Part shown: positions 13,330 through 44,817 of the stretch, piece by piece
Position numbering within the stretch: position 1 is the first letter of the stretch
How the letters are laid out: every line of letters starts with the position of its first letter
NCBI GenBank assembly: GCA_012295275.1
Contig: CM022673.1
Span: 7,647,811 to 7,711,810 of the forward strand
Reading direction: 5' to 3'
Source of the DNA: Chrysomallon squamiferum
Taxonomy: Eukaryota > Mollusca > Gastropoda > Neomphalida > Peltospiridae
Length of the DNA stretch: 64,000 nt
Program-made: the position numbers and the translations under genes
The notes under the pieces: model-generated
What the model saw: the letters and a program-made list of their open reading frames with translations, nothing else
What the model was told of the DNA's origin: nothing
Database searches by the model: none

Positions 13330-13361
<32 letters not shown>

Positions 13362-16300: not shown

Positions 16301-17287
16301 ACCTCTTCTTTAAACAATAGGATTTAACATAAAAAGCTCTGAACACTAGTTTCATAGTTTTAACATTTTATATTATAATGTTTTTAATATTTTATTCTTT
16401 ATTTGTACTTTTGATTATTTATTGCTATTTTTATTGATTTTTAATTTATTTCAGGAATGTGCATGCTACAGATGACGATGACAAAACGTGTCTTCATTAT
16501 GCTTCCCAGTCAAAGGCCATGTTGGCTCAGTCTGTTGTGAATATGTTGATTAACAAAGGTTCATGTACAGGTGAGATTCTGGTAGAGAAATCAATATTAT
16601 TAACCTAGCAGAGACCTGGTCTTTCACACTATTTTCTTTACAGTCCACAGAAGCTAAATCCTGATTTACAAAATCTGATCAAAATTACTTCCTGATATTA
16701 AGGTAGATTTAGTTTCACGGCATAAACAAAAAAATGAAGAAGAATTCAATAATGAATAATTGTTGCAAAAACTGAATGAAAAAGAGAAGAAAAAGAAACA
16801 AGCATCTTTCCTACCTTATTATTATTATATTTGCATTTTCAGATGCCCCAGACAAACGCCACTTTATGCCAATTCACCTTGCTTCTAAATCAGGAAACAC
16901 AAACGTGATAGTGTCACTGGTTGAAGGAGGATCAGAGGTTAACTCTAGAGGTTATGCTGGTTTAACACCATTACATATCACTGTGAGTCTTAGATATTAA
17001 TGTGTCAGCTCTTAATATCAGTTAGAAGGTAGTGAGGAATTTTTGAAATTTTTACTATTTTTATTGGTTGGTTGTCTGCATGAATTATATTTCTAAAAGC
17101 TGATAATAAGAATCGTGTTGCACCGTAAAAGTATATTGTTTGCATTTAGCTATTAAAATATTATTTTATTAACATAATCATGATAATGGCATATTTTTAT
17201 TTCTTCACCTATCACTAAAGATCAATGCCTTTATGTTTTACATTCCTTTACATTTAATTTAAAAAGAAAAAACTGAAATAAACAAAC

Positions 17288-17318
<31 letters not shown>

Positions 17319-20300
17319 GTAAAAATATAATAAATATAAAACAAACAACATTATACTGAATTTTGGCCAAAATGATGACCATTATTAATGTGTTCAAAAA
17401 TATTGAAATACAGGGTGGTGCAAAAGTAAAAATACAATTATGAAAAAAGAAAACACTTACAGTACTCATGGCATTTATTATTCAAACAAAAAATGTATTT
17501 TTATTAATTTAAATAAAATATGATTAATGACACTCATAATAAGAAAAATGAGACCAACTATTTTAATGTGCTGCTAAATTCACTGATGTGATACTGCTGT
17601 ATACCCTCTTTTTGCACCCCCTCTGGATATCTCTTAACATAGGAAGATAATTATATAAAATTCTCTACTTCAGGCTTACAATGATCACCATCAGGCTGCC
17701 AAGATGTTGCTGCAACATGGTGCTCGACGTGACACTGACAGATGACAGTGGAATGAGAGCAGTTGATTTGGCAAAAAGTCGCAAGATGAAGACAACTCTT
17801 AAAGAAGCATGGACAGAAGCTGAAGAAAAGAAGCAACCAACAAACTTGTCTCCAGTAAGAGCTCCCAGTAGGGAGCATTCCAGACTGTCATCAGAAGGCT
17901 CCAACAAGAAACGGACAGGAGAAGTCATTTTTGATGTTAGTATTCTAGCAGTGTATTGGTCTTAAAACATAAAAATCTGATTTAAAAAAACAAAAATCAA
18001 CTGATTTTAATAAATATTTTATTGTTCAATGTACGGTATATTTGTTACATGTTATATTTTTATCTTTTGAAAAAGAGAACTGCATTTATGAATAATGAAC
18101 TTGGGAAATACATTTTTAAAACATTTTAATTGGATTTCATATGAATAAACAGTATGTTAATTCTAATTTAGTAAAACGTTTAGTAAAAGTATAAATTTAG
18201 ATAACTTTTTATATTTATTTATTTATAATTTGTATTTCTGTTTTTCAGGGATTGCAGATACATGCAGTTTCTTCTCAGGGCAGTATTTCACAAAGTATGT
18301 TAATATTTTATATTTAGTTCTGTTTATCTCTATATTTTTGCATTAGATGAGAAAACATTTGTTGTTCATTTTTTTCTCTGTTTATATGTCTTCATATTTG
18401 TCTAATAACTTTAACATATCTGAAATATTTTCTATGTTTTGGGTTTTTCAGGGTCAATCTTGACAAGATCTCTCAGTAATGCTGAAAAAGCTAGAAAGGC
18501 AGAACAACAGATGCTTAGAGACATTGAATCTGGAAGGTTCACACCAACACCTAAGTATGAACTGCTGGTTATTTGTTAATGATATAATACTGGTAGAATC
18601 TGACATCAGTATCTTTAATTTACAGGAATATAATAATGGTTTTACAAAAGTAGTTGATGTTTTACTGCAGTAGAGAATAAAATAAATTAGTATTACTGGA
18701 TAAAACAGTTCTTTTCATAAGCACCATTGAATGAATAGATATATGGACAAACATTTATTTAATTACAGTGAGACAGTTATTAAATTTGAGAGAGAACAAT
18801 ACAGCTACGACTTCATGAAAAACACATATCTATTCACAGCAATAATTCTTTTGAAAGCCAATATTTCCCAAAGACACAAAAATATTTTACCATAGTCTTT
18901 ACTTGAATAAGAAAATTCCAAGTGAATGCACTGAGAATACTTGATTCCCTGATCTGTAAACTCCTTAAATTATTGCTCTAACCATTTAGCATTTTCAAAA
19001 GCAGTCTTAACAAGATAGCCAAAGAAATTAAGAGTAAAAACAGTTTAAACATTTGTTAATAAAACTAAAATATCATTTTACCTTATTTTTAAATTTTGTT
19101 TTAGAAATGCTGGAATTCTAATAAAAACTGATATATTCTTATCATATAGGGATAACTTTCGAAAGCTTGGTCAGCTGAGGAATAAACCTCCTCCTATTCC
19201 TCAGATTTCACAAAGTAGTAATATACCCAGCAGTCCAGACAGTTTGTCACCTGCAACACCTGGTTTACCCAAACATGTGGATGATGTTCGCAGGTCGCTG
19301 GAAGATGGCAGACATATGTGTCAGAAAGGACAACTGACCATACTTTGTATGTATCAGTTTGAGTACTTTTATCTGATCTAATATAACATTCAGTAATGGA
19401 CTAAAGATTACTTGTTATTGTTTATTATTGGCTAAATTAAGATATTAAATAAAATTTTTTGTACACTTTAATCAATACTGAGGTCAGAAATTTAAATATA
19501 TTTTGTTAAAGAAAGTTTTAAGTATACAAAAAAATTGATACTGTTTTACTTTATTATTTGTTTATTTGTCAGTTTATTATTGTTATTTCTGTTTTAGTTG
19601 TCACTGCTTTAATTTTTGCAAAAATTGAAATATATCTGTTTTTCCTCTTTGTTTTTAATTATTTCTCTTTTTGCTTTCAGCTGCATCATCCAGTGCATTG
19701 AGTTCATGCAAGGATAAAGATGTCAGCTTTTGTATTAAAAATAACAGGTATGCAAAATCTTTTCAAACTGCAGTTAAAGGAACATTACTCTTAATGATTT
19801 TCATGTAATGTCATACATAATGAAAAGAAAAACGGAACTGACCTTTTTAGTGATTTATAGTGGATTCATGTTAAGAGAATATGATCTTTAAGAGAAACTT
19901 AAGAGAAAGAGAGGAGACAGAGAAAAATAAGAATTTGTGATTACGTCTCTTGATAATTATCTGAATATTCACCTAACATTTATTTAAGATAATTCCTTTT
20001 AACATTTAGTTCCTTTTAATATATTATTTATTAACATTTACTTAAAATAAATCATGTTTTAAAATAATAGCTAATTTCTTTCCACCCTCTATGCCGATGT
20101 TTACTATTGGCTTTTTTTTTTTTAAATAGACAACATTCTCACATAATCACAGAAGACAGCAAGGAGAAGAAACATAAACGAAGTGGATCTGATCCTTTCA
20201 CTGCCTGCATTGGTGATGTTGCTTTGTCCTGTGATCAATATCTGTCAAGAAAGGGTATTTTATTCTTCATTATTCTTTTATAAAAATCTAGAATTAAACT

Positions 20301-23300
20301 TGGTAGTTAAAATTATTTTTAAATAGTAGGCAGATACATTATACCTAAAGTTAATATTTACAGTTGTCTTTATTTCTGTTTAAGGATTGGACAAAACAGT
20401 TTTCATTATTTTAAAGTAGATCGTTGTCATTTAACAGAATTTTAATTTTTTTTTTAATTTTTTTTTTTTTTTTTTTTTTTAATTTTTTTCATTTTTAATT
20501 TTTTTTTTTTTTTTAAATTGTTTTTTCAGCACGTTCTCATTCAACCTCTTCTTATGAAGAAACTGATGATGACCCACTGAAGATGATGCCACTGGATAGA
20601 GAACTGACAGGCTTGAACATTCCCTCAACTATCCCAGAAGTCAACAGTCCAAGAGTTACTGCTGTCATCATGGGTGCAGGTGAGATGTGCTTTATGAAAA
20701 CAAATTCTCAGTGTATTAACTCATCCCTGAACTCAGATCTGAGGAAGATAAGCAGCATATTTTTTTCATAATATTCTTATAGTTTTAAATCTGATGTTTA
20801 TTGTTTTAATTTGAAAGTGTATTTTATTTATAAACAATATTTTTTTCTATTATTTTTCAGCTTTATTTTTTTGTATCAAAAAATGAATTATCTGAATCCT
20901 GTTAAATGTATTAAATTTATTAAATTTATTTAATGTTGAACACTGGAAGAGATTTGATAAAGGTCTAAAGCCTTCAAGAGATCTTAATTTAGGTAATTCT
21001 ATTTGTATAAAAATTTGTATTTTATTACTTTTGTTACATCATATGGTTTTATAATACATTATCTTGCTTTATAAATATTTATATCATATTTAAAATTTTT
21101 ATTGCTGTTTACAGAGGAGCATTCTGTTTCATCATCAGTGATACCTATTTATCCAAACTCTTCACGTGTGCTACCCCCAACACCGGTTCCTACATTTCTC
21201 ACCCAGAAGTCTTTCAGTCTGCTGGATGGGAAACTTGTCAGATCACAAGAAAAGGTAACTGTATAACAGAATAACGTAATTATTTTTATTTACCTTAATT
21301 TTTACTGATATACCACTATAGCAAACCACTAAGTCAAATGGATTTTGTAGCAGTACCATAAGTTTAATTGATTCTGGATCATTTCAGTTAAGTCTGTATG
21401 AATTAATGTAATAGGAATATTGTATCTAAGTTATGAACATACTGAATGTTATGTAAGACACTGTTGTATTTGAATCAAATTTTTATAATTTCAGGAGCTG
21501 TCTCCTAGGTCTAATGACGAACTTCCTAAAATATTACAGGATCCGGTGAAGGCTGTGAGTGGAAACAGCCTGCTACGCAGTCACTCTATTTTCAAGGAAG
21601 AGTTCATTCTGGAAGAAAGTCGGCCAAAAGATCCATTACTGCAGTCCTCGGGCAGTGATCCTATGTCCAGTCCTAGCAGTCTTTCATCATCTTCCCCAAG
21701 AGACATGACCAGTATTATCCTCATAAATAAAAATACTGCGAAAATTGCCAAAGGTAGGATGTCACCTTTGATAACATGTGACTCAAAGCAAATCAGTGCC
21801 TGTGAGAACACTGCTGATTCAGGGCAGCAAAATGGAATTAAAACTCGTTCTAAAGTTGGCAGAAGTCAGAGTTTCAATACTGCAGGGTCAAAGTCAGCTT
21901 CTGCTAGGAAGTTTTCTGTGCCTGATAGTGTAACAGTGCATAATAAGCATATATCACCTGGGGGAATGGAGAGTTCTAATTCTGCAGTCAAAGTGAAATT
22001 TTCCAGAAGTGATTCAGAACTGCACAAACAGTTAGAGAATGCTGTTTCTCAAAATGGTAAAAATAAATTTACAAAGACCAGACATTCAACTCCTGCTTCA
22101 ACAGAAGTGCTTGTATCTCAGAACTGTGATAAAACACATGTAAAGGACTGTGGTGCAAAGTCTAAGACTGTAGCATCAGAAACTACTGGTAAAGAAAATA
22201 TCAAAAGTTTGAATATTAATTTGAGTAAAAATCCACAAAGCAACAGCTGTGTAACGTCCTAAAAATAAGGAATCACAAGTATCAGATAAAAGTGCAGACA
22301 CTAAAACATCTGATAAAAATATTGTAGACAAGAAGCAAACTGTAACATCAAAGAATGCAGTAACAAATAAACCCAGTAACAATGATATGAAAGTTTCAAG
22401 TAACAGTGCCACTTCAAATAACAGTCTGAAATCAAAAACATCTGACAAAAATGACAAGGATAAACAGCAAATTACATCCAAGAATTTGGCAACCAAATCA
22501 TCAGATATTTCTAATGCAAAAAAGTCTGGAGAGAATGTTGCAGTAAGAAAAAGTTCAGATTCAAAAGTATATGATAACAAAAACAGTCCTCTACAACCAG
22601 TCAGAGAGGCAGTTATAAAAACAGAGACCAAAGAAAATAGTGCTGATCAGAAAAAAGATACAAAGCTGGAGAAAGAAAATGTTTCTTATAACGCTGAAGC
22701 GAAAAATAATGACAAGATTGTGAAGGGATATGATGCTGTTGACAAGGATCAGAAGAAAGACATAAAAAAAGAAAATAATACTCAAAACATTTCTACTTTT
22801 ACCTCACAAAACCTTTCAAAATCTTCTGGGACAACACAGAGCATTTCCTTTGTCAGTAAAAAGCAGATCGTCCCTTCAAAATCTACACAAATGACATCTA
22901 TTACCAATCAGAATAAGACTAAATTCGTAAATGCTTCAAAAAAGGTTGACTCTACTAATAGTCTTGTTAAAACTGTAGTTCACAAAACTCAACAAGTAGT
23001 TCAGGTATCAGTGGAGAAGAAATCTCAAGAGAAGGAAGATCAAACAAAGCCTGCAGTTGAAATATCCAGTGCATCAACTATTGTTTCTAAAAGAGAGATT
23101 ATTTCCAGTAAGTCTCCTAAACCTGCAGTAGTTGTTCCAAAAGCTGGAGTAACAAATAATGCAAATAATGTTCATTCATCAGTTTCTAACAGTGTGCCTA
23201 CATTTAAAACGGGACCTCTTGTTCCAAAGCATGATCCTGGTGGAGTAGTAACTAAAACTGTAACAACAACTGCAAATAGTGTACCAGTTACCTCAACAAT

Positions 23301-26300
23301 CCAGACTCAGAATTCTCCAACCACAGTTTCCCAGAACAATAAGTTGAAGTCATCAGTCTCCGCTGCTGTAAACCTTCAGCCTAAAACTTCCACATCTATT
23401 CCCTCCCAGTCTCAAAAGTCTTCTGCTCCAAACAGTAAATCATTTGAATCTGCTAAGAAAAGTGCTTCCAACCTTATTTCTTCCATTAAGAACTCTGTGC
23501 AAATGAAAAATGTAAAAAGTAGTGTTACTAGTGATCCTAATTCAAAGTCAGAACATTATAAACTTTCTGATCATCACCAGTTTGGACATGTTTCTTCAAC
23601 AAAGGTAAATAAAAGTGAAGCAACACCAGCTAGCAATAAAAATGATATAAATTCAAAGATAACAGTCATAAGTTCACAGCATGATTTAGATGCTGTCAAA
23701 AATAAACATGTATCAACTCCAAAAGAACCTTTAGTAAAGATTTTACTTACAGGAGAAGAACCAAAACCCAGGATTTCCAATATACCCACTGTTAATCCTT
23801 TCCCAAGTGAAACGATACAGACACCTCTTATAGTTAATCCATTTGAAGACTTTGCTTTACCAGATTACAATATTCCTACTGTTAAACCTGCAAAAATTGC
23901 CAAAGGTGTTCCTGTGACTTCCTTTGGTTATGTGGTTGGAAAATCAACAAAAGATGCCACATGTAGATATAAAACTGCATCTAAATCTCGTGTTATCAAA
24001 AGTGCCAAAAAGACTCAGAGTAGTAAAGATTCCAAGAGACCTGTGTCTAGTAATCGACAACCATCTGCCAGAAGACGAGGTGCAAAGTCAAAACCAGGAG
24101 AACAAGAAGAAGCTCATAAGGTTAAGAGTGCTAAGGGTAAAAGGTTACGTTCAGGTAGAAGGAAGAAATCTGACCAAGAACCTGCTGAACTTACTAAGAA
24201 TGCATTAAACCACGATGTTGCAGTTATAACTGGAATTGGCTGGCATGTTACCACTGATTGTTTTGATACATCTGATGTCAAAGTTGCTAAAATGATTGAT
24301 TTGTCAGATTCTGAAGACTCTGATGTTTCTGTTGTTGAACTGATAAAAGATGAAGATCCATACTTCAAATTAAAACCAAAATTAACAGATAGATCCGCCA
24401 GTCCAAGCACACCAAGATTTCAAGAAGTCAAAATGAAACCAAAACAGAAGTCTTTACTGCCTATAATGACCAATGATGGGTTTCCACCCATGAATCTTGA
24501 TATGACTCAAGAACCATTGCCTGGTGTCCAGATTACTGAAGCAACAACTTCATCAGTAAATAAAAAACCAAATTCCAAAGAGAATAAATTTTCTTCTAAA
24601 ATGGATGATATCACAGATGAAGTCCATAAGAAAACAATGTTAAAGAAAATAAATTCCATTCCTCAGTCTCCCACACTTGTCAGTACTACTGTGAATGCTA
24701 TTCACTATTTTGACCAGACTGTCACAGGAGAACAGTTAGATGAGCTTTTAGGAATTAATCCTGATGAAACCATTTTGAGTAGTCACTCTGCCATAATTAA
24801 GCAAGGCTTAAGAAATGAGGCACCATCTGGTAAAAAACATTCAAGTACTATGAAGAAGAAAGCAGATGGCAAAGCCACTTCTAATTCTCAGTCATTAGTG
24901 CCAGAGAATGAAGGAAAAACATCTGCTTCAATGGACCTTAATAAAGATACATCCAACTCAGAAGAGGATAAAAACAATTTACTTGAACCTGCACTTAACA
25001 GAGAGCCTAGTGAAGAAGAGATAACTAAGATCATTAAAAAATATGCAAGCTTGAAACATACCTCCTCAAAGCCTTCCAGAGAAAGAAATGATGCCATGGA
25101 CAACGATGATTTTATGTCCAAAAGATGTGAAAGAAAGTTTTCAGAAACTAAACGAGAACAACATGAGAATGACAGTGAAATTGATGAGGCTATTGAAGAG
25201 ATCCTCAATTCCACTGCTGGAACATCGACTCTGAATTCGACACTAAGATCTAATAGAACTGTGAAGTCAGTGAACAGTACACTTACTGAAGCAGACATGA
25301 GTGTTCTTCTACAACTGAAGCAGACTGATTCTGTTTTCCATGCAAAACAGTCACATGATGATGTGCATCAGACAGAAACATCTGTTGATGAAACCAATCT
25401 AAATCTTTTGAAAAGATTCCATGATGACAACTTCAAAATGGGTTCAAAACTGAAAGCTATGATAGATGCTGATGCTGATGAGTCCAAAGTAAAAGCAATG
25501 ATCAATGCAGATGATGAACACAAGCAGCTAGAAAAAGTAATGAACTGTGTACGCAACATGGAGCTGCAGGTTACCATGACAAATACTTCAGGCAAAACAT
25601 CAAGTAACATCAGTCCACAGAAAATTCCTGTTAGGTCTGAGCAGACTATGGAGAGTCCACACAAAAGTAAAAAGCCTCCAAGTTGTCATGGACTGCCACC
25701 ATTGTTCAAGGAACTCAAGAAAACAAGTGTCCAAAAAGGAAGAGCAATTTCAGAGGTAAAATATTAGATACATCATATTTGTAGTTTTTAACATTCCATT
25801 ACAGTCATATTATTGAGTGTCTATAAAAATTGTTCTGTTTTACATGATTTAATATTTTAAAATAAAATTTGACTATCACAAAATTATTTAAATTTTTACA
25901 GCATGAAGATCAGAGTCCTCGTATTGGTAATAAGGAAGAAGCCGTACTGGAAGCCATCAGTAAAGAGATCATTATAAACCCTTCAGAGGGAGAGGTGAGT
26001 TATTTTTCTACTTTAATATATTACAAAATATTTAACTCTTTTTTTCATTGACCTCATTTTACATACCTCTAATTTCACAAATATAAACATATATTTTCAA
26101 CAAATTGTCATCAGATGAGAAAAAATATTCAACTAAACTTAAAAAATAAACAATTTGTTTAGAAAATAAACAGTTTGTTTAAAACATAATAATTTTTATT
26201 ATTTTGTAGACAATGTGCAGTCACTTGCGTGGTCGTAGAGGCAGCAGAACAAGCAGTGCTGGGACAGTGGACAGCATTGCATCAGATTCTGATGAGATGA

Positions 26301-27431
26301 TAGAGTGGAAGAAAGGAAATGTTCTTGGAAGAGGAGCATTTGGAGTGGTAAGGAAGAATTTTTACAAAACGTTTTCATAGAAAACGATATCTTGAATTTG
26401 CCTTGGTCTGAATATTGGCATCCTAGAGGCAGATCTTGTGTGAAATACCCCCGAACCTTAATTGGATGTTAGTGCATTAATCAGGTTTTATTCTGGTACA
26501 GAAATAGTGTAATTTTTCAAATCAAATTTGGGCTTAAATAACATTTTATGGATATATTTTAGGATGTATGTATATGCTTGTGTGCTTGTGTCCATGTGTG
26601 TGTGTGTGTGTCCATGTGTGTGTGTGTGTGTATGTGTGGAAACATTTGTTTCTGTGTGTGTATGTATACATGTGTGTGTATATATATATATTTAGTTGTT
26701 TATTTCAAAAGTGATTTATCTTATAATACATATTAAATAATTACATTAGCAAACTTAACTTTGTTGTAATATTTGAAAATAGTTCTGGTTTAAGAATAAT
26801 TTGTCTGCAGTTATATTTTTTTTTAAATATGGGGTTGTTTTTTTTTTTTAAATATTTTCTACTTCATATTTGTTTCCTTCTCCAGGTTTGGTGTGGATTA
26901 ACAAATGAGGGGGAACTGATTGCTGTGAAGCAGATAGAACTGAATGCAGCTGATCACAGCAAGGCACAGCGAGAGTATGAGAAAGTTCAGGAAGAAGTGG
27001 AACTGTTGAAGAATCTCAGACACAAGAACATAGTTGGGTTTGTATTTTTTCCATTAACAGTTTACACAGCAATTTACACAAATAAAAAATATATATATTT
27101 ACTGTGGAAAAAATTGTTTTCAGGGCATCTCATGAGGCAAATTTATTGTTAATATGTTTGTACCTATTGACAATAAAAACTATTCATAAAAATTGGTATA
27201 TTATTCATGGCCATGAAATTGCCCTGGAGTATCAAAAACTGGGCATCCACTTCTATCTATAAACTAGCTGTTAAAAGCATTTGGACTCATTGCACCTTGC
27301 AATTTCTTTATTTTTATTAAAAGTCTTAAAACATTTATGTATTTATTATTTTATTTATAAGTGTTGTATCAAAAACTGATTGTAATTACAAAATGTTTCA
27401 TCTTCATTTATTTATTTTAAAATATTATATA

Positions 27432-29542: not shown

Positions 29543-32500
29543 AGAAAATTTCTTTGTAAACAGTGGAAATTCAAAAAATAAACCATCTTGCAGCCAGTAA
29601 CATCATTATGATAAATGTTGTGAAAAAGAGTGCCAGATAAAAGGAGTTATACTGCAGTATTTCATCTGTGTTATGCAGCTGTATTTCAGCCAGTTCATGC
29701 TTTTGTTATACAGCAGTGTGTCAGTCAGGCAAAGTTCTGTTTGTATGTGTATTAAACAGATGTATTTCAGCCAATTATACATGTATAGGTATACTTTAGT
29801 TGCTTATCTACTAGACAGACATATGGAATTTTTCAGTCATTTAATGATTTATATGCAATTTACTCATTGTGATTAAAGCCACGTGGAAATACAACGGTAT
29901 TACACTTAAAATGTGATTTTGGATGCACCATGATTTAATTATTCATATATTTAAAAAAAAATTATATGAATGTGCAAAATAAAGAATCAGATTTGGTTTT
30001 TAATTTTGTACATTAAGTTCAGTGCAGGAATAAATATTGCATTAAATCAGTATTTCCTCTTTATTAAATCACTGTATTAGTACCACCAAGCTAGCATTAA
30101 CATCTTTCTGACAGGAACATTCAACTTGAAAATCTTAAAGTTTTAAATAAGTACTGCATTGAACGAACATCAACATTTCAGTAATAAGAGTAATTATTGC
30201 AAACATTCAACAAATAGTATCAGTGATTATCAAATACATTAAAGAAGTTTTCAACAAACATTGAATAAGCACAAAAAACTTTCTCCAAGTTTTGAATTAG
30301 TACCAGAGATATTTAACAGTAACTGAATTAGCAATCACTCAGTTGGCATTATGTTAAAAAAATACTGAATCAGTGTATAAATTATTCAGCTAGAATTGAA
30401 TAAGTAGCTGAAGTATTCCCAAGTATTGAATCAACACCTTAAGTATTCCACAAGTATTGAATCAGCACCTTAAGTATTCCACAAGTATTGAATCAGCACC
30501 TGATGTATTCGTCAAGTATTGAATCAGCACCTGAAGTATTCCACAAGTATTGAATCAGCACATGAAGTATTCCACAAGTATTGAATCAACACCTTAAGTA
30601 TTCCACAAGTATTGAATCAGCACCTTAAGTATTCCACAAGTATTGAATCAGCACCTGATGTATTCGTCAAGTATTGAATCAGCACCTGATGTATTCGTCA
30701 AGTATTGAATCAGCACCTGATGTATTCCACAAGTATTGAATCAGCACATGAAGTATTCCACAAGTATTGAATCAGCACATGAAGTATTCCACAAGTATTG
30801 AATCAGCACCTTAAGTATTCCACAAGTATTGAATCAACACCTTAAGTATTCCACAAGTATTGAATCAGCACATGAAGTATTCCACATGTATTGAATCAGC
30901 ACCTGATGTATTCATCAAGAATTGAATCAACCACCTGAAGTATTCATACTAGTACTGAATCAGTGTCTCAAGTATTCAGCAAATATTGCGTAAATTTAAC
31001 GTTAAGAAAGAAAAGATAAACTGTACTATGTTCACATGGATGTACATAGTAATTTTCTTTTTGCAATAATGATTCGAATGGGTATTTTGTAAGAATGTTG
31101 GTTTTTTTACTGTGTTCTTTAACCTGAAATACAGAGATAACTGTTTAAAGTGTGCCTAACTTTTGTAATGGTGATGTGTGGTTTTGTGCAGCAAGAACTG
31201 TATGAAAATGGATAACTTGTCTTTTTACAAGTTCCTATTATTTGGCTGTTTTGGAATGAGTTTATGAAGATATGATCTCAAAAATGTAATACTCTGATTT
31301 TGTTTTTGAGATCTTGGACAAAGGTGCTAGAAATTTAGCACACTTCTGTGTTAAAGTGTTGTGATGGACTTGTTACTCTTGTGAGAGGATTACATTCTAT
31401 CGATTTTTCATTTAGTTAATTTATTTACCTTTTATTTGAAATTAAGAAAAGCAATGATTTTTGGGGAACAAAGATGTGTGTTTTTATTTTCAAAATATTC
31501 TTCATTTCTTTTTCTTTGTTTTTTATGAATAATTCTGAAAAATAAAACATTGGACACATTTGAGAATTTGAAACCTGGAGAGTAATTTCAGTCCAGTCAC
31601 CAACTGCTGATGGATTTTAATTGTGATATATCAACTATTCACTTAGATTTTCAACAAAAATGCAATCTTTTGTACTTGTTGTGACTTCACAAAATCATGA
31701 TCAATAATTCAGTGTGTGAAATTTTGTAACAATTAGTATTTTACAGGACTCAGTTTTTAATGTGTTGGTTGTAACAAAACTAAACATTCCATCTTTTTTG
31801 CTATTTACACAGTTGTGATATATATATAAAACGTTTTAGAATTATTTACAATGATTTTAATTTACTTTTGCTGTTCTGAATTTTGTTTTAACCAATAACT
31901 TTTGATAATATTTTAACCAACTTAATATTTGATCTTTGTACATGAGCACAAGCACACTCACATACATTAATTTCAAGTATATTCATTTACTTAACCTTGT
32001 AAAAATCTGTATAGAGAAAATTACTAATTTTATAAAACTAGGATCATTTTAATTTTATGTAATGGTTTTTACTCCACTTGGGTTTTATGATAATTTTTAC
32101 TGCTTTATGTAAATTACTTTTTTAACAATTTTGAATGAAATGATAAATTAAGACTGTATTGAATGGGCATTTCATGTAAATATTTTATGGCAGGAAATGT
32201 GTAAAAATATTACAAATATCTTCTATTGTGTAAATCTATAGTTTGATGTTTGTAACAAGATTTAGAATCTTTGACAGTTTTTCTTCATACAGTTTTGTGT
32301 TTTTTTCATTCTACCATTATATATTTGAATATTAATATAGAATTCATTTGTTTTAAATACAGTGTCTTCATTTGTATCACTTTTATAGTTTTTACAGTTC
32401 TTTGTAAATATACACCACCATTTTCCTTTTCTAAAGTATCTTTTAAATTTTAAAATCAATGAAAATATGTATACTGCTGATAATTTACATTTTTTGAGTG

Positions 32501-33770: not shown

Positions 33771-36700
33771 TTAAAATTTACGAAATGCTTTTTTAGATCG
33801 TGAAGTCTTCATAACTTTCAGAACATTGAAGCATACAGTTTTGGAGAGAGGTCTGCATTCACCAATTGTCACAACATCACCAACGGAAATATCCCTGAAA
33901 AATTAAAAACATTTGTTACAAATAAATAGTCATAAATGTATCAAAAGATAATAAATGGTTCTTTTATTCTGGAACTTTTTTTGGTAAATATTTGAAACAA
34001 GTAGTAATGGTTTAATAAAACCTGTTTGGTACAAGCTGGTGTAAAATCTTTCAGAGACTTCTGAAGTATCATCACAGGATTTATGAAGACCATCGTGATT
34101 ATCATTTCGGATAATGCACCAAGAGAAAAGGTTAACAAATATTTAGTGACATATGTTACTTTAGCAAACACTGTACTGCACCTTCAGTATTTAAGTATCT
34201 TTACTCACCTTTTTAAAAAATTTATTTCAACTTCAGTGGTAAAAATGTTTTTAACCATATGCTTATTTAATCTTAATATTATTGTAAATAGCAAAATATT
34301 TTCCATGAGAAAATTTAAAAAAATCTATGCATTTTAATATATTTCTACATCAAAACTGATCAGAATATTTAGACTAACTAAAATCTTAATTTTATTATCA
34401 TGGTTTGTTTCAAGTGCAACATCTGCAATCAGAAATTTAAATTTGTCATCAATTATATTTTATGAAGACCATCGTGATTAGATATCATCATTGCAGATAA
34501 TGCACCAATAAAAATGAAAAAACCAAGAAACAAATAAAATAAATTATTTTAATCAACATTACTCTGGATTGGTATTTAAAAAAGTAAACCAGCAGCAGTA
34601 TCTAATCAATTCCTGTGTATGTATGGAAATGTAATGTATTAGCTATTGTGTACTAATATTTATTTCTTTAGACATCTCCATCATGTGGAAATAGTCGCAA
34701 GAAAACTGACTGATCTACATAAATAAATCATGATAAAAATGGAACATTTTTGTTTAAAACACTTTATAGCTTAACATTTTCTTTCATGTTTATTTGTTTA
34801 CTGAATAACACAGCAATATTAATATTAAAAGATTTACTAAATGTAGTTTCAAACTGGATGTTGGATAATATACAAAATCATGCAAAGATTGAACTGCAAA
34901 AATTGACAGAAAATCTAAGATAAAATGACATAGTAAATTACTTCTACATATGTACAGATTTTATACATCAGTGCAATATCTGCATTGTCAGAATTTTAAT
35001 TTGTCATCAATTTTATTTTATGAAGACCATCGTGATTAGATATCATCATTACAGAACACACACTGATGAAAATTTTAAAAACAGCTTTAAACTAATACAA
35101 AACTGAATTCAAACCTTTAGAGTAGTGAGAATCAAAAGGATGATTTATTATAAATTTGCTTAAAAAATATGCTGAACAGATAGTCATAGGACCATTTATC
35201 TGGCAAGCTTGGGGCTTGATGTGATCTAGATTTCTGGTCCAAAACTGAAGATCAATATAAAATAATGAAAAATTGTGAGTGCAAAAGCTTTTAGAAGTGT
35301 AACATGCTGTGTATTATAATTTCATTAGAAAATGTGTTATTAGTGATTTATCTTACTTCAGAAACTGGTGAATATCTTCATGGTTTTTTTTAAGATAAAA
35401 TAATTTCATCACTGTAGATAAACTCACTGTTCATGTGTGCTGGAGTTAATACAGATTTTGATATATTCTATAGTAGTATTAGCTGTCAAATGCATTCAGA
35501 AAAGCAAATTACTAAATCTACATCCTGAAGAGCCATGCCTTGTTAGAACAGTCATAAACCAAATGTAGAACAATTAACAAACTGAGGATGACAGATATTC
35601 CTATTTCTTTACCAATAGATGAAATGTTTAGTAATTAGTACTTCTGAACTACTTTATATTCTTTAAATATATTTTATATATTAAATTGTACTGAAATTTG
35701 TCTATTAAAAATAATTTGAAAATTAAATATAATTTCAACATCTGCAATCAGAAATTACAATTTTGTCATCAACATGTTATGAAGACCACATCATTACAGA
35801 AAAAAACACTGTTAAAAATCATTAAACTTCAAATACTTTTCAAGCAATATATAGAATTTTATCTATGCTAGAATTTGGTTTGTATCCATATAAAAAATAT
35901 AAATCCTGTTCTTGCAATAACTTAAGTTTGTATATTTATTTAAATTTTATACTGCTGAATAAAATAAAGCATCTACAACGAGATATTTGAAAATGAAATT
36001 AATGATTAAATATATCTGTACAAAAACCCATTTTATTAAATATAAATATTGCAATAAAGCATCTACAACTATTTGAAAATATTAATGGTATATCTGCTGT
36101 CAGAAAGGTGAATATCATCATGACATTTAAGAAGGGGATCGTGATTGTTTCATCATTGCAGACATCAAAATTGTTAATTTATGATCAACAATGTTTTTAC
36201 AGACTAATAATTTTTTTTTAAAAAGGATGGCAGATAAATGAATGAAGATTCAGTAACACCAATGGAAAGAAAGATTTTTGCTATAGGTTGTTTAAGACTG
36301 AAAGCATGCCAATGAAGAAGCTAAACCCTCCAAACTAAATCCTGCATCCAAAGCAAAAAATGTGTGATGTTGCTTGAAACTACATTCCATTTACACTTAG
36401 ATACAAAAATAATAAAAGACTACTGTGATACATTTTTATCATTACAGACAGGAATTGAAATAATATCAATTTATTAGCATGCACATGCTAAAAAATTAAT
36501 TGTTGTTCTGAAGTACATGCCCTGAAATAATATCAAAGAAAAGAATTTACAAATGTTCTCAATGCTAGTTTCATCATACAAGTATCACAAGTAGTTATTT
36601 AACTATAAAAGGCTTCTACAATACTTCACAACGCACAGATGGATATTATAGGGAAATCTGTTTAATTTGCTTGTTAATATGTTCTTGGCAATATGATCCA

Positions 36701-39700
36701 TATTTAGTATAATCCTATCTTTAATAATTTATTTTCCTGTAATTTACTAATCTAATAAAATTGTTCATGTGTGCTGGAGTTAATTCAGATTTTGATATAT
36801 TCTATAGTAGTATTAGCTGTCAAATGTATTCAGAAAAGCAAATTACTAAATCTACATCCTGAAGAGCCATGCCTTGTTAGAGCAGTCATAAACCAAATGT
36901 AGAACAACTAACAAACTGAGGATGACAGATATTCCTACTTCTTTACCAATAGATGAAATGTTTAGTAATTAGTACTTCTGAACTACTTTATCTTCTTTAA
37001 ATATATTTTATATATTAAATTGTTTGGCCTGATCTAATTAGTGCTATCATGTAGTAAAATATTATTACATTTAAATTTCAAATAGGTTACAACCCAAGTA
37101 ATCTATTAATCATTGAATTATGAAAATTAACATTTATATACCAGTGCAACATCTGCAATCAGAAATTACAATTTTGTCATCAACATGTTATGAAGACCAT
37201 CGTGATAATGTATCATCATTACAGAAAAAACACTGTTAAACTTCAAATACTTTCAAGCAATATACAGAAGTAAATAGCTATCTATGCTAGAATTTGGTTT
37301 GTATCCATATAAAATGATGTTTGTATCAAGAATTACCCCATACACATGCCCCCCAAAAATCCTGTTCTGCTGATTAACCAAGTAACTTAAGTTTGTATAT
37401 TTATTTAAATTTTATACACCTGAATAAAATAAATCAACTGGACACAATTTCTTTCCGAGATGGAAATTTTATAAATGGTCTGAAAATAATTTGATTAAAT
37501 ATAATTTCTAACTGTTGTGTGTACAAAAACCCATTTTATTAAATATAAATATTGCAATAAAGCATCTACAACTATTTGAAAATATTAATGGTATATCTGC
37601 TTTCAGAAACGTGAATATCATCATGACATTTAAGAAGGGGATCGTGATCGTTTCATCATTGCAGACATCAAAATTGTTAATTTATGATCAACAAGCCTCT
37701 TATTAAATTTACTATGTTCTTACAGAATAATAATTTTTTTTAAAAGGATGGCAGATAAATGAAGGAAGATTCAGTAATACCAATGGAAAGACAGATTTTT
37801 GCTATAGGTTGTTTAAGACTGAAAGCATGCCAATGAAGAAGCTAAACCCCTCCAAACTAAATCCTGCATTCAAAGCAAAAAATGTGTGATGTTGCTTGAA
37901 ACTACATTCCATTTACACTTACATAGATACAAAAATAAAAAGACTACTGTGATAAATTTTTATCATTACAGACAGGAATTGTAATAGTATCAATTTATTA
38001 GCATGCACATGCTAAAAAATTAATTGTTCTAAAGTACACGCCCTGAAATAATATCAAAGAAAAGAATTTACAAATATTCAGAATGCTAGTTTCATCATAC
38101 AAGTGTCACAAGTGGTTATTTAACTATAAAAGGCTTCTACAATGGCTCGCAACACACAGATGGATATTAAAGGGAAATCTGTTTAATTTGCTTGTTAATA
38201 TGATCCATATTTACTATAATCCTATCTTTAATAATTTATTTTCCTGTAATTTACTAATCTAATAAAATTGTTCATGTGTGCTGGAGTTAATACAGATTTT
38301 GATATATTCTATAGTAGTATTAGCTGTCAAATGCATTCAGAAAAGCAGATTACTAAATCTACATCCTGAAGAGCCATGCCTTGTTAGAGCAGTTATAAAC
38401 CAAATGTAGAACAACTAATAAACTGAGGATGACGGATATTCCTATTTCTTTACCAATAGATGAAATGTTTAGTAATTAGTACTTCTGAACTACTTTATAT
38501 TCTTTAAATATATTTTATATATTAAATTGTTTGGCCCGATCTAATTAGTGCTATCATGTAGTAAAATATTATTACATTTAAATTTCAAATAGGTTACAGC
38601 CCAAGTAAACTATTAATCTATTAAATATTGAATTATGAAAATTAACATTTATATACCAGTGCAACATCTGCAATCAGAAATTACAATTTTGTCATCAACA
38701 TGTTATGAAGACCATCGTGATAATGTATCATCATTACAGAAAAAACACTGTTAGAACTTCAAATACTTTCAAGCAATATACAGAAGTAAATAGCTATCTA
38801 TGCTAGAATTTGGTTTGTATCCATATAAAATGATGTTTGTAACAAGAATTACCCCATACACATGCCCCCCCAAAATCCTATTCTTCTAATTAAGCAAGTA
38901 ACTTAAGTTTGTATATTTATTTAAATTTTATACGCTGAATAAAATAACGCAGCTGGACACAATTTCTTTCCGAGATGGAAATTTTATAAATTGTCTGGAA
39001 ATAATTTGATTAAATATAAATATTGCAATAAAGCATCTACAACTATTTGAAAATATTAATGGTATATCTGCTTTCAGAAATGTAAATATCATCATGACAT
39101 TTAAGAAGGGGATCGTGATTGTTTCATCATTGCAGACATCAAAATTGTTAATTTATGATCAACAAGCCTCTTATTAAATTTACTATGTTTTTACCGAATA
39201 ATAATTTAAAATAAAAGGATGGCAGATAAATGAAGGAAGATTCAGTAATACCAATGGAAAGACAGATTTTTGCTATAGGTTGTTTAAGACTGAAAGCATG
39301 CCAATGAAGAAGCTAAACCCTCCAAACTAAATTCTGCATCCAAAGCAAAAAAATGTGTGATGTTGCTTGAAACTACATTCCATTTACGCTTAGATACAAA
39401 AATAATAAAAGACTATTGTGATAAATTTTTATCATTACAGACAGGAATTGAAATAATATCAATTTATTAGCATGCACATGCTAAAAAATTAATTGTTGTT
39501 CTGAAGTACATGCCTTGAAATAATATCAAAGAAAAGAATTTACAAATATTCAGAATGCTAGTTTCATCATACAAGTGTCACAAGTGGTTATTTAACTGTA
39601 AAGTGCTTCTACAATGGCTCACAACACACAGATGGATATTATAGGGAAATCAGTTTAATTTGCTTGTTAATATGTTCTTGGCAATATGATCCATATTTAC

Positions 39701-42700
39701 TATAATCCTATCTTTAATAATTTATTTTCCTGTAATTTACTAATCTAATAAAATTGTTCATGTGTGCTGGAGTTAATACAGATTTTGATATATTCTATAG
39801 TAGTATTAGCTGTCAAATGCATTCAGAAAAGCAAATTACTAAATCTACATCCTGAAGAGCCATGCCTTGTTAGAGCAGTCATAAACCAAATGTAGAACTC
39901 ATAAACTGAGGATGACGGATATTCCTATTTCTTTACCAATAGATGAAATGTTTAGTAATTAGTACTTCTGAAATACTTTATCTTCTTTAAATATATATGT
40001 TAAATTTTTTGGCCTGATCTAATTAGTGCTATCATGTAGTAAAATATTATTACATTTAAATTTCAAATAGGTTACAAGTAATCTATTAATCTATTAAATA
40101 TTGAATTATGAAAATTAACATTTATGTACCAGTGCAACATCTGCAATCAGAAATTACAATTTTGTCATCAACATGTTATGAAGACCATCGTGATAATGTA
40201 TTATCATTACAGAAAAAACACTGTTAGAACTTCAGATACTTTCAAGCAATATACAGAAGTAAATAGCTATCTATGCTAGAATTTGGTTTGTATCCATATA
40301 AAATGATGTTTGTATCAAGAAGTACCCCATACACATGCCCCCCAAAAAAAACCTATTCTTCTAATTAAGCAACTTAAGTTTGTATATTTATTTAAATTTT
40401 ATACGCTGAATAAAATAAATCAACTGGACACAATTTCTTTCCGAGATGGAAATTTTATAAATGGTCTGAAAATAATTTGATTAAATATAATTTCTAACTG
40501 TTGTGTGTACAAAAACCCATTTTATTAAATATAAATATTGCAATAAATCATCTACAACTATTTGAAAATATTAATGGTATATCTGCTTTCAGAAATGTAA
40601 ATATCATCATGACATTTAAGAAGGGGATCGTGATTGTTTCATCATTGCAGACATCAAAATTGTTAATTTATGATCAACAAGCCTCTTATTAAATTTACAA
40701 TGTTTTTACAGAATAATAATTTTTTTTTAAAAAGGATGGCAGATAAATGAAAGAAGATTCAGTAATACCAATGGAAAGACAGATCTTTGCTATAGGTTGT
40801 TAAAGACTGATAGCATGCCAATGAAGAAGCTAAACCTTCCAAACTAAATCCTGCATCCAAAGCAAAAAATTAGGACATGTTCCTGTGTGATGTTGCTTAA
40901 AACTACATTCCATTTACACTTATATAGATACAAAAATAAAAAAAGACTATTGTGATAAACTGAAATAATATCAATATATAAGCATGCACATGCTAAAAAA
41001 TTAATTGTTGTTCTAAAGTACATGCCCTGAAATAATATCAAAGAAAAGGATTTACTAATATTCAGAATGCTAGTTTCATCATACAAGCAATTATTTAACT
41101 ATAAAGGGCTTCTACAATGGCTCGCAACACAGATAGATATTACAGGGAAATCAGTTTAAGTTGCTTATTAATATGTTCTTGGCAATATGATCCATATTTA
41201 CTATAATCCTATCTTTAATAATTTATTTTCCTTTAATTTATTAATCTAATAAAATTGTTCATGTGTGCTGGAGTTAATACAGATTTTGATATATTCTATA
41301 GTAGTATTAGCTGTCAAATGCATTCAGAAAAGCAAATTACTAAATCTACATCCTGAAGAGCCATGCCTTGTTAGAGCAGTTATAAACCAAATGTAGAACA
41401 ACTAACTGAGGATGACGGATATTCCTATTTCTTTACCAATAGATGAAATGTTTAGTAATTAGTACTTCTGAAAAACTTTATCTTCTTTAAATATATTTTA
41501 TATATTAAATTGTTTGGCCTGATCTAATTAGTGCTATCATGTAGTAAAACATTATTACATTTAAATTTCAAATAGGTTACAAGTAATCTATTAATCTATT
41601 AAATATTGAATTATGAATTTTATGAATCTGCAACCATCAACATGAATTATGAAGACCATCGTGATAATGTATCATCATTACAGAAAAAACACTGTTAGAA
41701 CTTCAGATACTTTCAAGCAATATACAGAAGTAAATAGCTATCTATGCTAGAATTTGGTTTGTATCCATATAAAATGATGTTTGTGTCAAGAAGTACCCCA
41801 TACACATGCCCCCCCCCAAAAAAACCTATTCTTCTAATTAAGCAAGTAACTTAAGTTTGTATATTTATTTAAATTTTATACGCTGAATAAAATAAATCAA
41901 CTGGACACAATTTCTTTCCGAGATGGAAATTTTATAAATGGTCTGAAAATAATTTGATTAAATATAATTTCTAACTGTTGTGTGTACAAAAACCCATTTT
42001 ATTAAATATAAATATTGCAATAAAGCATCTACAACTATTTGAAAATATTAATGGTATATCTGCTTTCAGAAACGTGAATATCATCATGACATTTAAGAAG
42101 GGGATCGTGATTGTTTCATCATTGCAGACATCAAAATTGTTAATTTATGATCAACAAGCCTCTTATTAAATTTACAATGTTTTTACAGAATAATAATTTT
42201 TTAAAAAAAAGGATGGCAGATAAATGAAAGAAGATTCAGTAACACCAATGGAAAGACAGATTTTTGCTATAGGTTGTTAAAGACTGATAGCATGCCAATG
42301 AAGAAGCTAAACCCTCCAAACTAAATCCTGCATCCAAAGCAAAAAATTAGGACATGTTCCTGTGTGATGTTGCTTAAAACTACATTCCATTTACACTTAT
42401 ATAGATACAAAAATAAAAAAAGACTATTGTGATAAACTGAAATAATATCAATATATTAGCATGCACATGCTAAAAAATTAATTGTTGTTCTAAAGTACAT
42501 GCCCTGAAATAATATCAAAGAAAAGATAAAGGGCTTCTACAATGGTTCATAACATATAGATGGATATTATAGGGAAATCAGTTTAATTTGCTTGTTAATA
42601 TGTTCTTGGCAATATGATCCATATTTACTATAATCCTATCTTTTATTTTCCTGTAATTTACTAATCTAATAAAATTGGAAACTTAAAATAAAGTGCATGA

Positions 42701-44817
42701 CTTAGATATGTATAGATTAGTCATCAATGAATATCTGAATAAATCTGAACAGCTACAAGGACAATTACTTTAAAAAACTTTATAGAGCAAGATAATGATT
42801 AATAACAGTAAAATGCTGTCTTTTAATAATGTATTTCAAAAAGTGAAATCTGCAGTCAGAAATTAATGCTGTCATCAAAGGACATATGAAGACCATCGTG
42901 ATATGGTATCATCACAGCAGATCACAAATTGAAAACATTTTGTCAGATTAAAAAATGACGAAACTGCAAAGGTAAACAAAATTTCAAGGTTTATTAGGAA
43001 AAAATCTTGATAAAACCCCTAAAGAGACCTAACAGTGAGCTATTAAAAAAAAAAAAAAGGCACTGTTTACCAGTTCTATAGGGTATATAGTGATGGTGTG
43101 ATTAACATTTACCTGAAACAAGGACTGCAGTGAACAGACATGTTTTTGTGACGTTTTTCAAATCGTTTGTACTTTCTGACGAAGTGCAGATATTCTCTTC
43201 TGATTACTATGGTTTTCTGCATCTTCATCTTGAGGACAACTCCTGACAGAATTCGACCTCGAATGCTCACATCCCCAGTGAAAGGACATTTTCTGTCAAT
43301 GTATGTTCCATCGATGGCCTGAAAACAAAATTACCAACAAAACAATAAAACAGAATAGAATAAACAACCAAATGAATACAAAAATCCTAAATACACATTT
43401 AATAAGTTTTTTCCTCTTAGATATCCAATATACATGTTTACGACAGCCATAAATGACAATTTATTTTTCTCTTTAAAAAAAAATACAAAATGTCTTTAAC
43501 ATTGCAGCCATTACCAAAATGTTAACCAGGTTTGCTTAAGCAAACCCCGTATAACCTTCTGTTCTTGAAATCAATTCCAAATCCATATCTGATAAATTAG
43601 TTGTAAAACAGTCCTGTAGTTTTAACAGAAATATTAAAATAAAAGCAAAATAAACTCAGAATGCTGCATTTAAATCATGTTGAACATTCTCAATGAACAT
43701 GTGCATGACATGATTTGCTAATCTTAAATTTTTGCTTCTAATTAGTACTTACTTCACGGGGTGTTTTGAACCCAAGGCCAACATTTCTCACATAGCGCAA
43801 GTTTTTTTTCCCCTTTCCAGACAGTAGGGATTTCTTGTTCAAAAACACACTTGGCTGCTTCTGAAAGGATCTTTCAACCTGAGAAAGATAAAATAGTACA
43901 ACTTCAAGTAAAAATAATCCAACAATTTATGACTTCACATATGCTAGGTATGTTACACACCAGAATTTTGCCAACATTTTTTTCCAATGGGACCCATTAG
44001 GACCCAGCTGAGTGTGCCGAGGGCTAGTCCTGAAACGCTGGGTTTCTGTATCATAACCCTGGCCCCCATTTTGTTTGGGTTTTTTCTAGAAAAAAAAAAT
44101 AATTTAAATTCAGCAATATGCTCATGAACTTCTGTTGTGTTAAATGTTTAACTGGAAGAAAATATGCACCAGTTACAGGATTTGAAATTACTGTGACTTC
44201 CTTAATATTCTCTATATTCACTTGGTCTTGGTATCATTTTAAATGGGTTTCTAAGCTCTTTCCACCTGTTGTGGAAAACAAATTCTGATTTCCGGTGTTT
44301 GAAGATTTTGTTTGCATGCCTATAAATTCATAACAAACATTACTGTGACATTTTGTTATTTGTTCAGTGCTCTTTATAAGGGATTAGGAAGTTTGTAATA
44401 TATCGAAATTTCATATTTTTTGTAATGTAATAAACCTATATATCATATATGCTGTTAATGATATATAAAAATCAAAAAATAAAGTATCGAAGATTAAAAA
44501 TAAAATAAGTTTAATTTTGTATTTGGAAAATTCCAGTTTGCTAATATTTAATGACTTCCAAAACATAAATCTTAATCCTTACTATAAATTTATTATTTAT
44601 AATTTACTTTTACTTTTAAAGTCTAGTCTAATTCTGTAGTGTCCGATTATTATTATTAAAAATTAAAAGTTCATTAAATAGAGATTTAATTTGGACACAT
44701 AACCGATATTGTTGTTACAATTAAGGAAAGGTTTGTGTTTATTCTGAGCTCTAACTGAACTAAAATTAAAGCACAGTAATGTCGAAAACTACAAAACATG
44801 TGTACCTGATCCGCCAT
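33771..44817 (-). CDS. RPS11: 40S ribosomal protein S11 (uS17)
   Basis: Structural protein of the small ribosomal subunit that binds 18S rRNA. Coding exons in transcript order: 44817-44806 (MADQ), 43878-43753, 43318-43113 and 33894-33771, totalling 468 nt and 155 aa against 158 in human. All introns are GT-AG and phases match. The protein is recognisable along its whole length: [58 protein letters not shown] and [17 protein letters not shown] are near-identical to animal S11. The leader contains a pyrimidine-rich CCTTTT (about 44843-44848) that could be a 5'-TOP start. The last intron, about 9.2 kb, is unusually large for a ribosomal-protein gene and holds the snoRNA array. In vertebrates RPS11 hosts SNORD35B, so the host-cargo pairing is old. 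Confidence 0.97.
34046..34110 (-). ncRNA. U35-like box C/D snoRNA candidate A1 (diverged)
   Basis: On the RPS11 strand: C box AUGAUAA (34099-34105, one change from consensus), guide UCACGAUGGUCUUC, an internal GUGAUGAU C'-like box, and D box CUGA (34051-34054). The terminal stem is weak. It lies only about 150 bases from the last RPS11 exon, so it may be poorly processed or decayed. Confidence 0.5.
34421..34498 (-). ncRNA. SNORD35: U35-like box C/D snoRNA candidate A2
   Basis: A complete structure on the RPS11 strand: terminal stem AUCUGCAA/UUGCAGAU (perfect 8 bp), C box AUGAUGA (34485-34491), guide UCACGAUGGUCUUC (34464-34477), C' box UGAUGAC (34445-34451), D box CUGA (34429-34432). The guide can pair 12 nt, with one G-U, to the conserved AGACCGUCGUGA segment of large-subunit rRNA, the known U35 target. 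Confidence 0.85.
34979..35055 (-). ncRNA. SNORD35: U35-like box C/D snoRNA candidate A3
   Basis: C box AUGAUGA (35043-35049), the same UCACGAUGGUCUUC guide, C' UUGAUGA and D box CUGA (34988-34991). The terminal stem is reduced to about 4 bp by substitutions. Confidence 0.75.
35349..35420 (-). ncRNA. Type-B-like box C/D candidate B0 with altered guide
   Basis: On the RPS11 strand: terminal stem UAUCU/AGAUA, C box GUGAUGA, and D box CUGA (35358-35361) preceded by GAUAUUCACCAGUUU, which matches the D-side of the type B copies. The segment after box C is now mainly A and U, so the C-side guide is lost. Confidence 0.45.
35740..35800 (-). pseudogene. Defective U35-like snoRNA copy A4 (unit 1)
   Basis: The D box, C' box and 3' half match the other type A copies. 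About 14 bases spanning most of the guide and part of the C box are deleted: the sequence goes from gaagacca straight to catcattac on the + strand. It cannot guide as U35. Confidence 0.8.
36093..36162 (-). ncRNA. Type B box C/D snoRNA candidate B1 (unit 1)
   Basis: Stem UCUGC/GCAGA, C box AUGAUGA, C-side guide AUCACGAUCCCCUUC, C' box AUGAUGAU, D box CUGA with GAUAUUCACCUUU before it. It shares box layout and the AUCACGAU core with type A, so it looks like a diverged duplicate whose guide now ends CCCCUUC. I do not recognise its rRNA target. Confidence 0.7.
37151..37225 (-). ncRNA. SNORD35: U35-like box C/D snoRNA candidate A5 (unit 2)
   Basis: Intact C box AUGAUGA, guide UCACGAUGGUCUUC, C' UUGAUGA and D box CUGA. 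The terminal stem is UCUGUAA against UUGCAGA, with one G-U pair. Confidence 0.82.
37596..37665 (-). ncRNA. Type B box C/D snoRNA candidate B2 (unit 2)
   Basis: C and D boxes and the UCUGC/GCAGA stem are intact. The guide core is GAUCACGAUCCCCUUC, with one base different from B1 at its 5' side. The D-side reads GAUAUUCACGUUU. Confidence 0.7.
38666..38740 (-). ncRNA. SNORD35: U35-like box C/D snoRNA candidate A6 (unit 3)
   Basis: All boxes, stem and the UCACGAUGGUCUUC guide match copy A5. No disabling change is visible. Confidence 0.82.
39067..39136 (-). ncRNA. Type B box C/D snoRNA candidate B3 (unit 3)
   Basis: Same C, C' and D boxes, terminal stem and AUCACGAUCCCCUUC guide as B1. The D-side differs (GAUAUUUACAUUU). 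Confidence 0.7.
40139..40213 (-). ncRNA. SNORD35: U35-like box C/D snoRNA candidate A7 (unit 4)
   Basis: Guide, C' box and D box are intact, but the C box reads AUGAUAA instead of AUGAUGA, a change at a kink-turn base that may weaken 15.5K binding. Confidence 0.65.
40582..40651 (-). ncRNA. Type B box C/D snoRNA candidate B4 (unit 4)
   Basis: Intact boxes, stem and AUCACGAUCCCCUUC guide. The D-side is as in B3. Confidence 0.7.
41626..41684 (-). pseudogene. Defective U35-like snoRNA copy A8 (unit 5)
   Basis: C box and UCACGAUGGUCUUC guide are intact, but a deletion of about 20 bases removes the D box and part of the C' region between ATCTGCAA and CATCAACATG (+ strand). Without box D it should not be processed. 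Confidence 0.8.
42059..42128 (-). ncRNA. Type B box C/D snoRNA candidate B5 (unit 5)
   Basis: Intact C, C' and D boxes, UCUGC/GCAGA stem and AUCACGAUCCCCUUC guide. The D-side is as in B2 (GAUAUUCACGUUU). Confidence 0.7.
42848..42922 (-). ncRNA. SNORD35: U35-like box C/D snoRNA candidate A9 (outside the array, near exon 3)
   Basis: One of the two best-formed copies: stem AUCUGC/GCAGAU, consensus C box GUGAUGA (42909-42915), guide UCACGAUGGUCUUC (42888-42901), C' box UUUGAUGA, D box CUGA (42856-42859). It lies about 190 bases downstream of RPS11 exon 3 and outside the 1.5-kb repeats, and its flanks are unlike theirs. It may be the ancestral locus. Confidence 0.87.
43985..44070. other. GC-rich hairpin element in RPS11 intron 1
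   Basis: A block much richer in G and C than the intron around it. It contains AATGGGACCCATT (43986-43998, self-complementary arms), CCCAGC (44003-44008) pairing with GCTGGG (44037-44042), and GGGTT...AACCC. I do not recognise a C/D or H/ACA snoRNA. A fossil SINE central domain or an unknown structured RNA are both possible. Confidence 0.4.

Follow-up and report, generated by a model that had tools for sequence, protein, structure and literature searches.

Why should a ribosomal-protein gene carry an intron of more than nine kilobases? A sequence-only reading of the window (the whole 64,000-nt stretch of Chrysomallon squamiferum DNA analysed here) had put the last intron of RPS11 at 9.2 kb and proposed that it houses an amplified cluster of U35-like box C/D guide RNAs. 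Our measurement of the intron agrees, at 9218 nt (43112-33895); introns 1 and 2 of RPS11 measure about 930 and 430 nt. The gene lies on the minus strand in four coding exons, whose ends were set by eye on the printed sequence, and intron 3 has the splice ends GTAAAT...TTTCAG (Table 1). Over its full length, the protein joined from the window exons shares 92% identity with that of Gigantopelta aegis and 86% with those of two Haliotis species; these rank first for full-length identity among the best 120 of 4581 matches. A plain box search of introns 1 and 2 found no C/D pair. The genome around the window comprises 404.6 Mb in 22 contigs.

Several other features lie in the window. A minisatellite (31-bp unit, 19 copies, 89% matches, 30395-30988) is found between RPS11 and a kinase-like ORF. 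Exon-like ORFs extend across 12420-27149, with a weak ankyrin match at 12420-12845 and a protein-kinase match below cut-off at 26727-27149; between these two ORFs, a 1170-aa serine-/lysine-rich frame has no Pfam family at E 0.001. An uninterrupted 347-aa frame at 62898-63938 carries a rhodopsin-family GPCR domain (Pfam 7tm_1, E 2.9e-49).

U35-like copies in the last RPS11 intron

We scanned the window for the guide TCACGATGGTCTTC, allowing up to two mismatches, and found eight matches, each of them exact and on the minus strand, at positions from 34085 to 42901. In shuffled windows the mean was 0.07 matches and the maximum one, so a chance origin of the guide copies was rejected. Nine guide copies had been claimed, and eight of them stand: in the ninth (35794) a deletion removed the 5' part of the guide and left only TGGTCTTC. 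We call these nine segments family A. With RUGAUGA as the consensus of box C and CUGA as that of box D, both boxes and the terminal stem are present in seven of the nine, two of the seven having the degenerate form ATGATAA as their C box, and box C' (UGAUGA) was found in the intact copies. This confirms the earlier description of boxes C, C' and D with a terminal stem in most copies, the copy at 41664 being one without box D. The D' box is degenerate throughout, read by eye as CAUA in A and CUUA in the B copies described below, and C and D boxes are 55–63 nt apart.

Are these copies U35? U35 occurs once or twice in chicken and humans. An Rfam search at gathering scores returned nothing. Under relaxed settings, SNORD35 was the best family for seven of the nine A copies, at 20.2–26.6 bits against a cut-off of 36; two of these copies also drew weaker matches to other C/D families. 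A SNORD35 covariance search, suggested as a check with the original proposal, supports it as to family, whereas even the best A copy, at 26.6 bits, stays under the 36-bit gathering score. Across the whole genome, where 58 of 5686 candidates were scored, SNORD35 gave 12 matches, six in intron 3 and six elsewhere; the four best are copies of intron 3, all below cut-off, and the guide was absent from the three outside matches examined (L005-L007), so that further copies may lie elsewhere in the genome. Weak sub-threshold SNORD35 matches also occurred in 14 of 14 prokaryote control genomes. Amplified U35-like box C/D guides nevertheless remain the best reading of the intron, given SNORD35 as best family and a chicken RPS11 that, in the available text of PMC2653536, hosts a single U35. 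Judged from its sequence, the array in intron 3 appears to be a real amplification of a U35-type guide RNA inside RPS11.

A changed-guide family and a recent tandem array

The earlier reading had overlooked a further level of organisation, namely a 1.5-kb array, five copies of a family B, five decayed copies of a family C and a remnant at 35439-35324. The unit of about 1.5 kb occurs five times in intron 3 (1237–1515 nt each, 86–97% identical), with one A, one B and one C apiece. In the direction of transcription the order is one A, five times C-B-A, the remnant and then three further A copies. Family B carries the guide TCACGATCCCCTTC in five copies (42110, 40633, 39118, 37647 and 36144), all of which have an intact box C, box D and 8-bp stem; C' is intact by eye. 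Identity between B and A is 72–78%. The C copies, recognised by TCACARTAGTCTTT, are comparably diverged (67–78%), and all five have lost box D.

We built a covariance model from seven A copies, leaving the B copies out. It recovered all nine A copies and found all five B copies at E about 1e-8 to 1e-9, so B is a paralogue of A. The remnant and three of the five C copies scored at noise level (E 0.12–0.47) and the other two C copies were unmatched. The model also matched the plus strand at 34402-34524 (E 0.021), which is the antisense of an A copy. Because this antisense match outscores the C copies and the remnant, the model alone is no proof of these, and it is pairwise similarity, run without a shuffled control, by which they are assigned as probable relatives of A. 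A sub-threshold Rfam SNORD36 match (26.4 of 30 bits) falls on the remnant at 35352-35417.

Table 1. Positions in the window of RPS11 and of the guide-like copies in its last intron
Feature	Position	Strand	Remarks
RPS11 coding exon 1	44817-44806	minus	
RPS11 coding exon 2	43878-43753	minus	
RPS11 exon 3	43113..43318	minus	coding
RPS11 exon 4	33771..33894	minus	last coding exon; stop codon 33773-33771
RPS11 intron 3	33895..43112	minus	array host; GT...AG; 9218 nt
A copy	42822..42941	minus	intact; outside recent array; Rfam SNORD35 26.6 bits
A copy (41664)	41598..41704	minus	guide whole; box D deleted
A copy	40113..40233	minus	C box ATGATAA; rest intact
A copy (38720)	38640..38760	minus	intact; array representative
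A copy	37125..37245	minus	intact
A copy	35714..35820	minus	pseudogene; 5' guide part deleted
A copy (35035)	34952..35075	minus	intact; long external stem, -20.0 kcal/mol
A copy (34477)	34395..34517	minus	intact; strongest external stem, -20.8 kcal/mol
A copy (34098)	34020..34131	minus	C box ATGATAA; weak external stem, -8.9 kcal/mol
B copy	42032..42143	minus	changed guide TCACGATCCCCTTC
B copy	40555..40666	minus	
B copy	39040..39151	minus	
B copy	37570..37680	minus	also a sub-threshold SNORD15 match (19.6 bits vs 75)
B copy	36066..36177	minus	
B-like remnant (assigned)	35324..35439	minus	boxes but no guide; pairwise similarity; model score at noise level
Decayed C copy (assigned)	36365..36467	minus	TCACAGTAGTCTTT; no box D; model score at noise level
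Decayed C copy (assigned)	37893..37991	minus	model score at noise level
Decayed C copy (assigned)	39333..39441	minus	model score at noise level
Decayed C copy (assigned)	40942..40955	minus	guide trace only, TCACAATAGTCTTT; no covariance-model match
Decayed C copy (assigned)	42419..42432	minus	guide trace only, TCACAATAGTCTTT; no covariance-model match

Constraint, external stems and predicted rRNA target

Five A lineages were told apart: 42901, the recent array (represented by 38720), 35035, 34477 and 34098. Their cores are 70–92% identical over the ten possible pairs, and in all ten the similarity of the 200-nt flanks falls to that of shuffled sequence. All 18 columns of the guide stretch are invariant across the five lineages, compared with 4 of 28 other columns between C and D (Fisher p = 2.6e-9) or, with gapped columns dropped, 4 of 18 (p = 1.6e-6). 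These values are inflated, since the A copies had been picked out by 14 of the 18 guide columns and changed-guide relatives were filed as B or C. Two figures are free of this circularity: (i) guide-side columns outside the recognition set, invariant in 4 of 4 (p = 0.002; gap-free 0.01); and (ii) box C', invariant in six of seven (p = 0.0008; gap-free 0.007). Box C is invariant in only four of seven columns owing to GTGATGA in 42901 and an alignment gap in 34098.

In the recent array, conservation of the A segment does not rise above that of the adjoining sequence: 41 of its 87 columns vary, deletions included, and 60% of windows vary equally or less; without gaps, 20 of 66 columns vary compared with 18% overall. 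The C segment varies in 20 of 72 columns (gap-free 6 of 58). Family B is the least variable segment, with 4 of 83 columns variable and 4.5% of windows equally low; since the five units are recent, an invariant guide in B carries little information, and the stretch adjoining box D differs among B copies.

For the external stems, we paired the 22 nt upstream of box C with the 22 nt downstream of box D and compared the energies with 3000 placements drawn at random elsewhere in the window (mean -4.4 kcal/mol, sd 2.6). Six of the seven A copies tested have stems of -15.4 to -20.8 kcal/mol, matched in strength by 0–0.1% of the background; the seventh, 34098, reaches -8.9 kcal/mol (5.5% of background as strong) and two B copies tested reach -11.5 kcal/mol (1.4%). 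In an alignment of the seven A copies, few and related sequences, four pairs of the outer helix are altered on both sides, a number equalled by 2 of 500 shuffles; other covariation measures were weaker, with 24 of 500 shuffles reaching the value for overall pairing, 27 that for the covariation score and 66 that for further pair types. External stems are tied to splicing-independent processing, and stems of this length would suit the release of RNAs from a long intron where most copies lie at a distance from the splice sites.

Where would the guides direct methylation? The A guide pairs over 12 nt, with one G-U, to GGTTTAGACCGTCGTGAGACA in 14 of 14 fetched eukaryotic LSU contigs, none from a snail. 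This reproduces the 12-nt pairing reported earlier, in partly circular fashion: the contigs were picked by a pattern that holds most of the site, so the pairing shows the register and is not an independent find. GGTTTAGACCGTCGTGAGACA is the best site for the A guide in five of five LSU segments, where 9–14 of 500 shuffled guides equal it; under scoring blind to bond strength, another place beats it in three of the 14 contigs (L015, L020 and L021) and ties with it in L012. Thirteen contigs filed as bacterial MAGs (L009-L021) are probably contaminants, as they contain eukaryotic 28S sequence.

The methylated nucleotide of a box C/D target faces the fifth guide nucleotide upstream of D'. With D' read as CATA, this guide nucleotide faces the first C of GACC. 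The positions of G4499, U4500 and U4502 in the accessible text of PMC4463414 put that C at 4506, and C4506 is given as the site of U35 and yeast snR73 in the parts available of PMC3511168 and PMC8817022; the yeast equivalent is Cm2959 in the latter and is printed as Cm2956 in the former. In the LSU rRNA of these other eukaryotes the A guide is complementary to the Cm4506 site with the correct spacing from D', and Cm4506 is its predicted target.

Family B differs in this respect. Its guide keeps UCACGAU but has CCCCUUC in place of GGUCUUC, leaving it unable to form the U35 duplex, and in each of the five LSU segments tested its best match lies somewhere other than the U35 site. Against eight rRNA segments from other eukaryotes, the B guide did no better than shuffled guides in seven (39–335 of 500). 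In one LSU segment (L018) it reached 10 of 500 shuffles, equal to A at its own site, and this place is not the best site in the other four LSU segments. We also rejected a B duplex at ATAGGGAACGTGAGCTG, which lies upstream of the U35 site by about 20 nt, as 335 of 500 shuffles equalled it (L009), or 285 of 500 for the L021 form. A possible B target would be a match to AAGGGGATCGTGA or a near form. The idea that the expansion served new guides gains a concrete candidate in B, as a putative guide. Of the genome's seven small contigs we scanned all except about 1.4 kb, and no rRNA words were found. These seven pieces (contigs C16-C22) measure 10.8–39.8 kb, compared with 20–49 Mb for contigs C1, C3, C9 and C14; G+C in the first 10 kb is 0.44–0.45 in C17, C19, C21 and C22 and 0.28–0.32 in the other three.

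Origin of the array and known snoRNA systems

What history would produce such an intron? Tandem duplication with birth-and-death amplification of U35, the guides directing methylation through a snoRNP, is in our view highly probable. An ancestral U35 (SNORD35) in the last RPS11 intron would have been copied several times long ago, giving the separate surviving A lineages; one copy would have altered its guide to become B, and one would have decayed to become C. Later, a segment of about 1.5 kb holding one A, one B and one C may have been tandemly duplicated into five units, some of them already breaking. RPS11 transcription would deliver all copies within one intron, external stems would join the ends of each copy, and snoRNP proteins could then bind while exonucleases trim to RNAs of about 60–80 nt. 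By pairing over 12 nt with LSU rRNA, the A RNAs would guide 2'-O-methylation to the C that corresponds to human C4506. What the sequence itself shows are the boxes, the stems, the guide retained in separate lineages and the pairing; transcription, processing, methylation and any dosage effect are steps that we infer. A stronger version, in which repeated U35 duplication within a highly transcribed ribosomal-protein intron makes it a working factory for new guides, B is neofunctional and directs methylation at a new site in this lineage, and copy number has been fixed for the dosage of both guides, strikes us as unlikely.

Alternatively, a satellite-like duplication could have happened to include U35, leaving one or two working A copies among passengers that add neither dosage nor function. 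The youth of the array, the unremarkable conservation of its A segment and the decay of copies (two of nine A broken, five C and one B-like remnant) all suit this reading. It has more difficulty with lineages 42901, 35035, 34477 and 34098, which together with the array keep the guide, the guide-side columns and box C' although most other positions between C and D are altered, and with external stems that persist through four compensated pairs. The retention of guide, box C' and stems across A lineages suggests that several copies have probably long been under constraint, and we hold the passenger explanation to be rather unlikely. A further reading, in which part of the array is an artefact of assembling a heterozygous genome from long reads, is very improbable: the likely source assembly did come from a highly heterozygous animal (1.38%, in the text available of PMC7142155), but the units differ by 3–14% plus indels, which long reads should resolve, and copies outside the array are far more diverged.

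The standing of B is more evenly balanced. It could be a dead-end copy with accidentally intact boxes and no new guide, consistent with rRNA matches at the level of shuffled guides in seven of eight segments and with the variation next to box D. Yet boxes and the 8-bp stem are intact in all five B copies while the comparably diverged C lost box D in all five, B is the least variable of the three array segments even when A and C are counted gap-free, and in one LSU segment its match equals that of A at its own site. We give the dead-end reading slightly less than an even chance.

New snoRNAs are thought to be born by duplication, and the intermediate stages are seldom seen side by side. In this single intron of a housekeeping gene, the ancestral guide stands next to a paralogue with a changed guide and to copies in decay, so that dosage, processing and guide birth become testable at a single locus. 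Among the papers listed in a literature search that covered few subscription journals, none describes an amplified U35 array in RPS11, and none such an array of any canonical rRNA guide within a single ribosomal-protein intron.

The closest known family is SNORD35/U35 (Rfam RF00211, clan CL00056; plant RF00328, yeast snR73 RF01207), with which the A copies share the guide UCACGAUGGUCUUC, the box architecture, the predicted Cm4506 target and, as far as the available account of chicken goes, the RPS11 host. They differ in their long external stems, in scoring under the Rfam cut-off and in numbering nine in one intron instead of one. The SNORD35 model is 88 long, compared with 55–63 nt from C to D here. 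For most members of the tandem box C/D arrays SNORD115 and SNORD116 (HBII-52 and HBII-85), no canonical rRNA target is known. They belong to an imprinted region of eutherian mammals, whereas the array described here has a ribosomal-protein host and a canonical rRNA guide. What they share with it, from the part of PMC4063771 available, is growth, partly in tandem, into large gene families, together with birth-and-death, pseudogenes and constrained functional elements. It is well known that snoRNAs duplicate inside host genes, and the accessible portions of PMC2653536 and PMC3412847 describe cis-duplicated snoRNAs of chicken and sponge inside one host gene, including ribosomal-protein introns. 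In those accounts the extra copies lie mostly in neighbouring introns; in RPS11 of this snail, a multi-unit array sits in a single intron, with a changed-guide paralogue in each unit.
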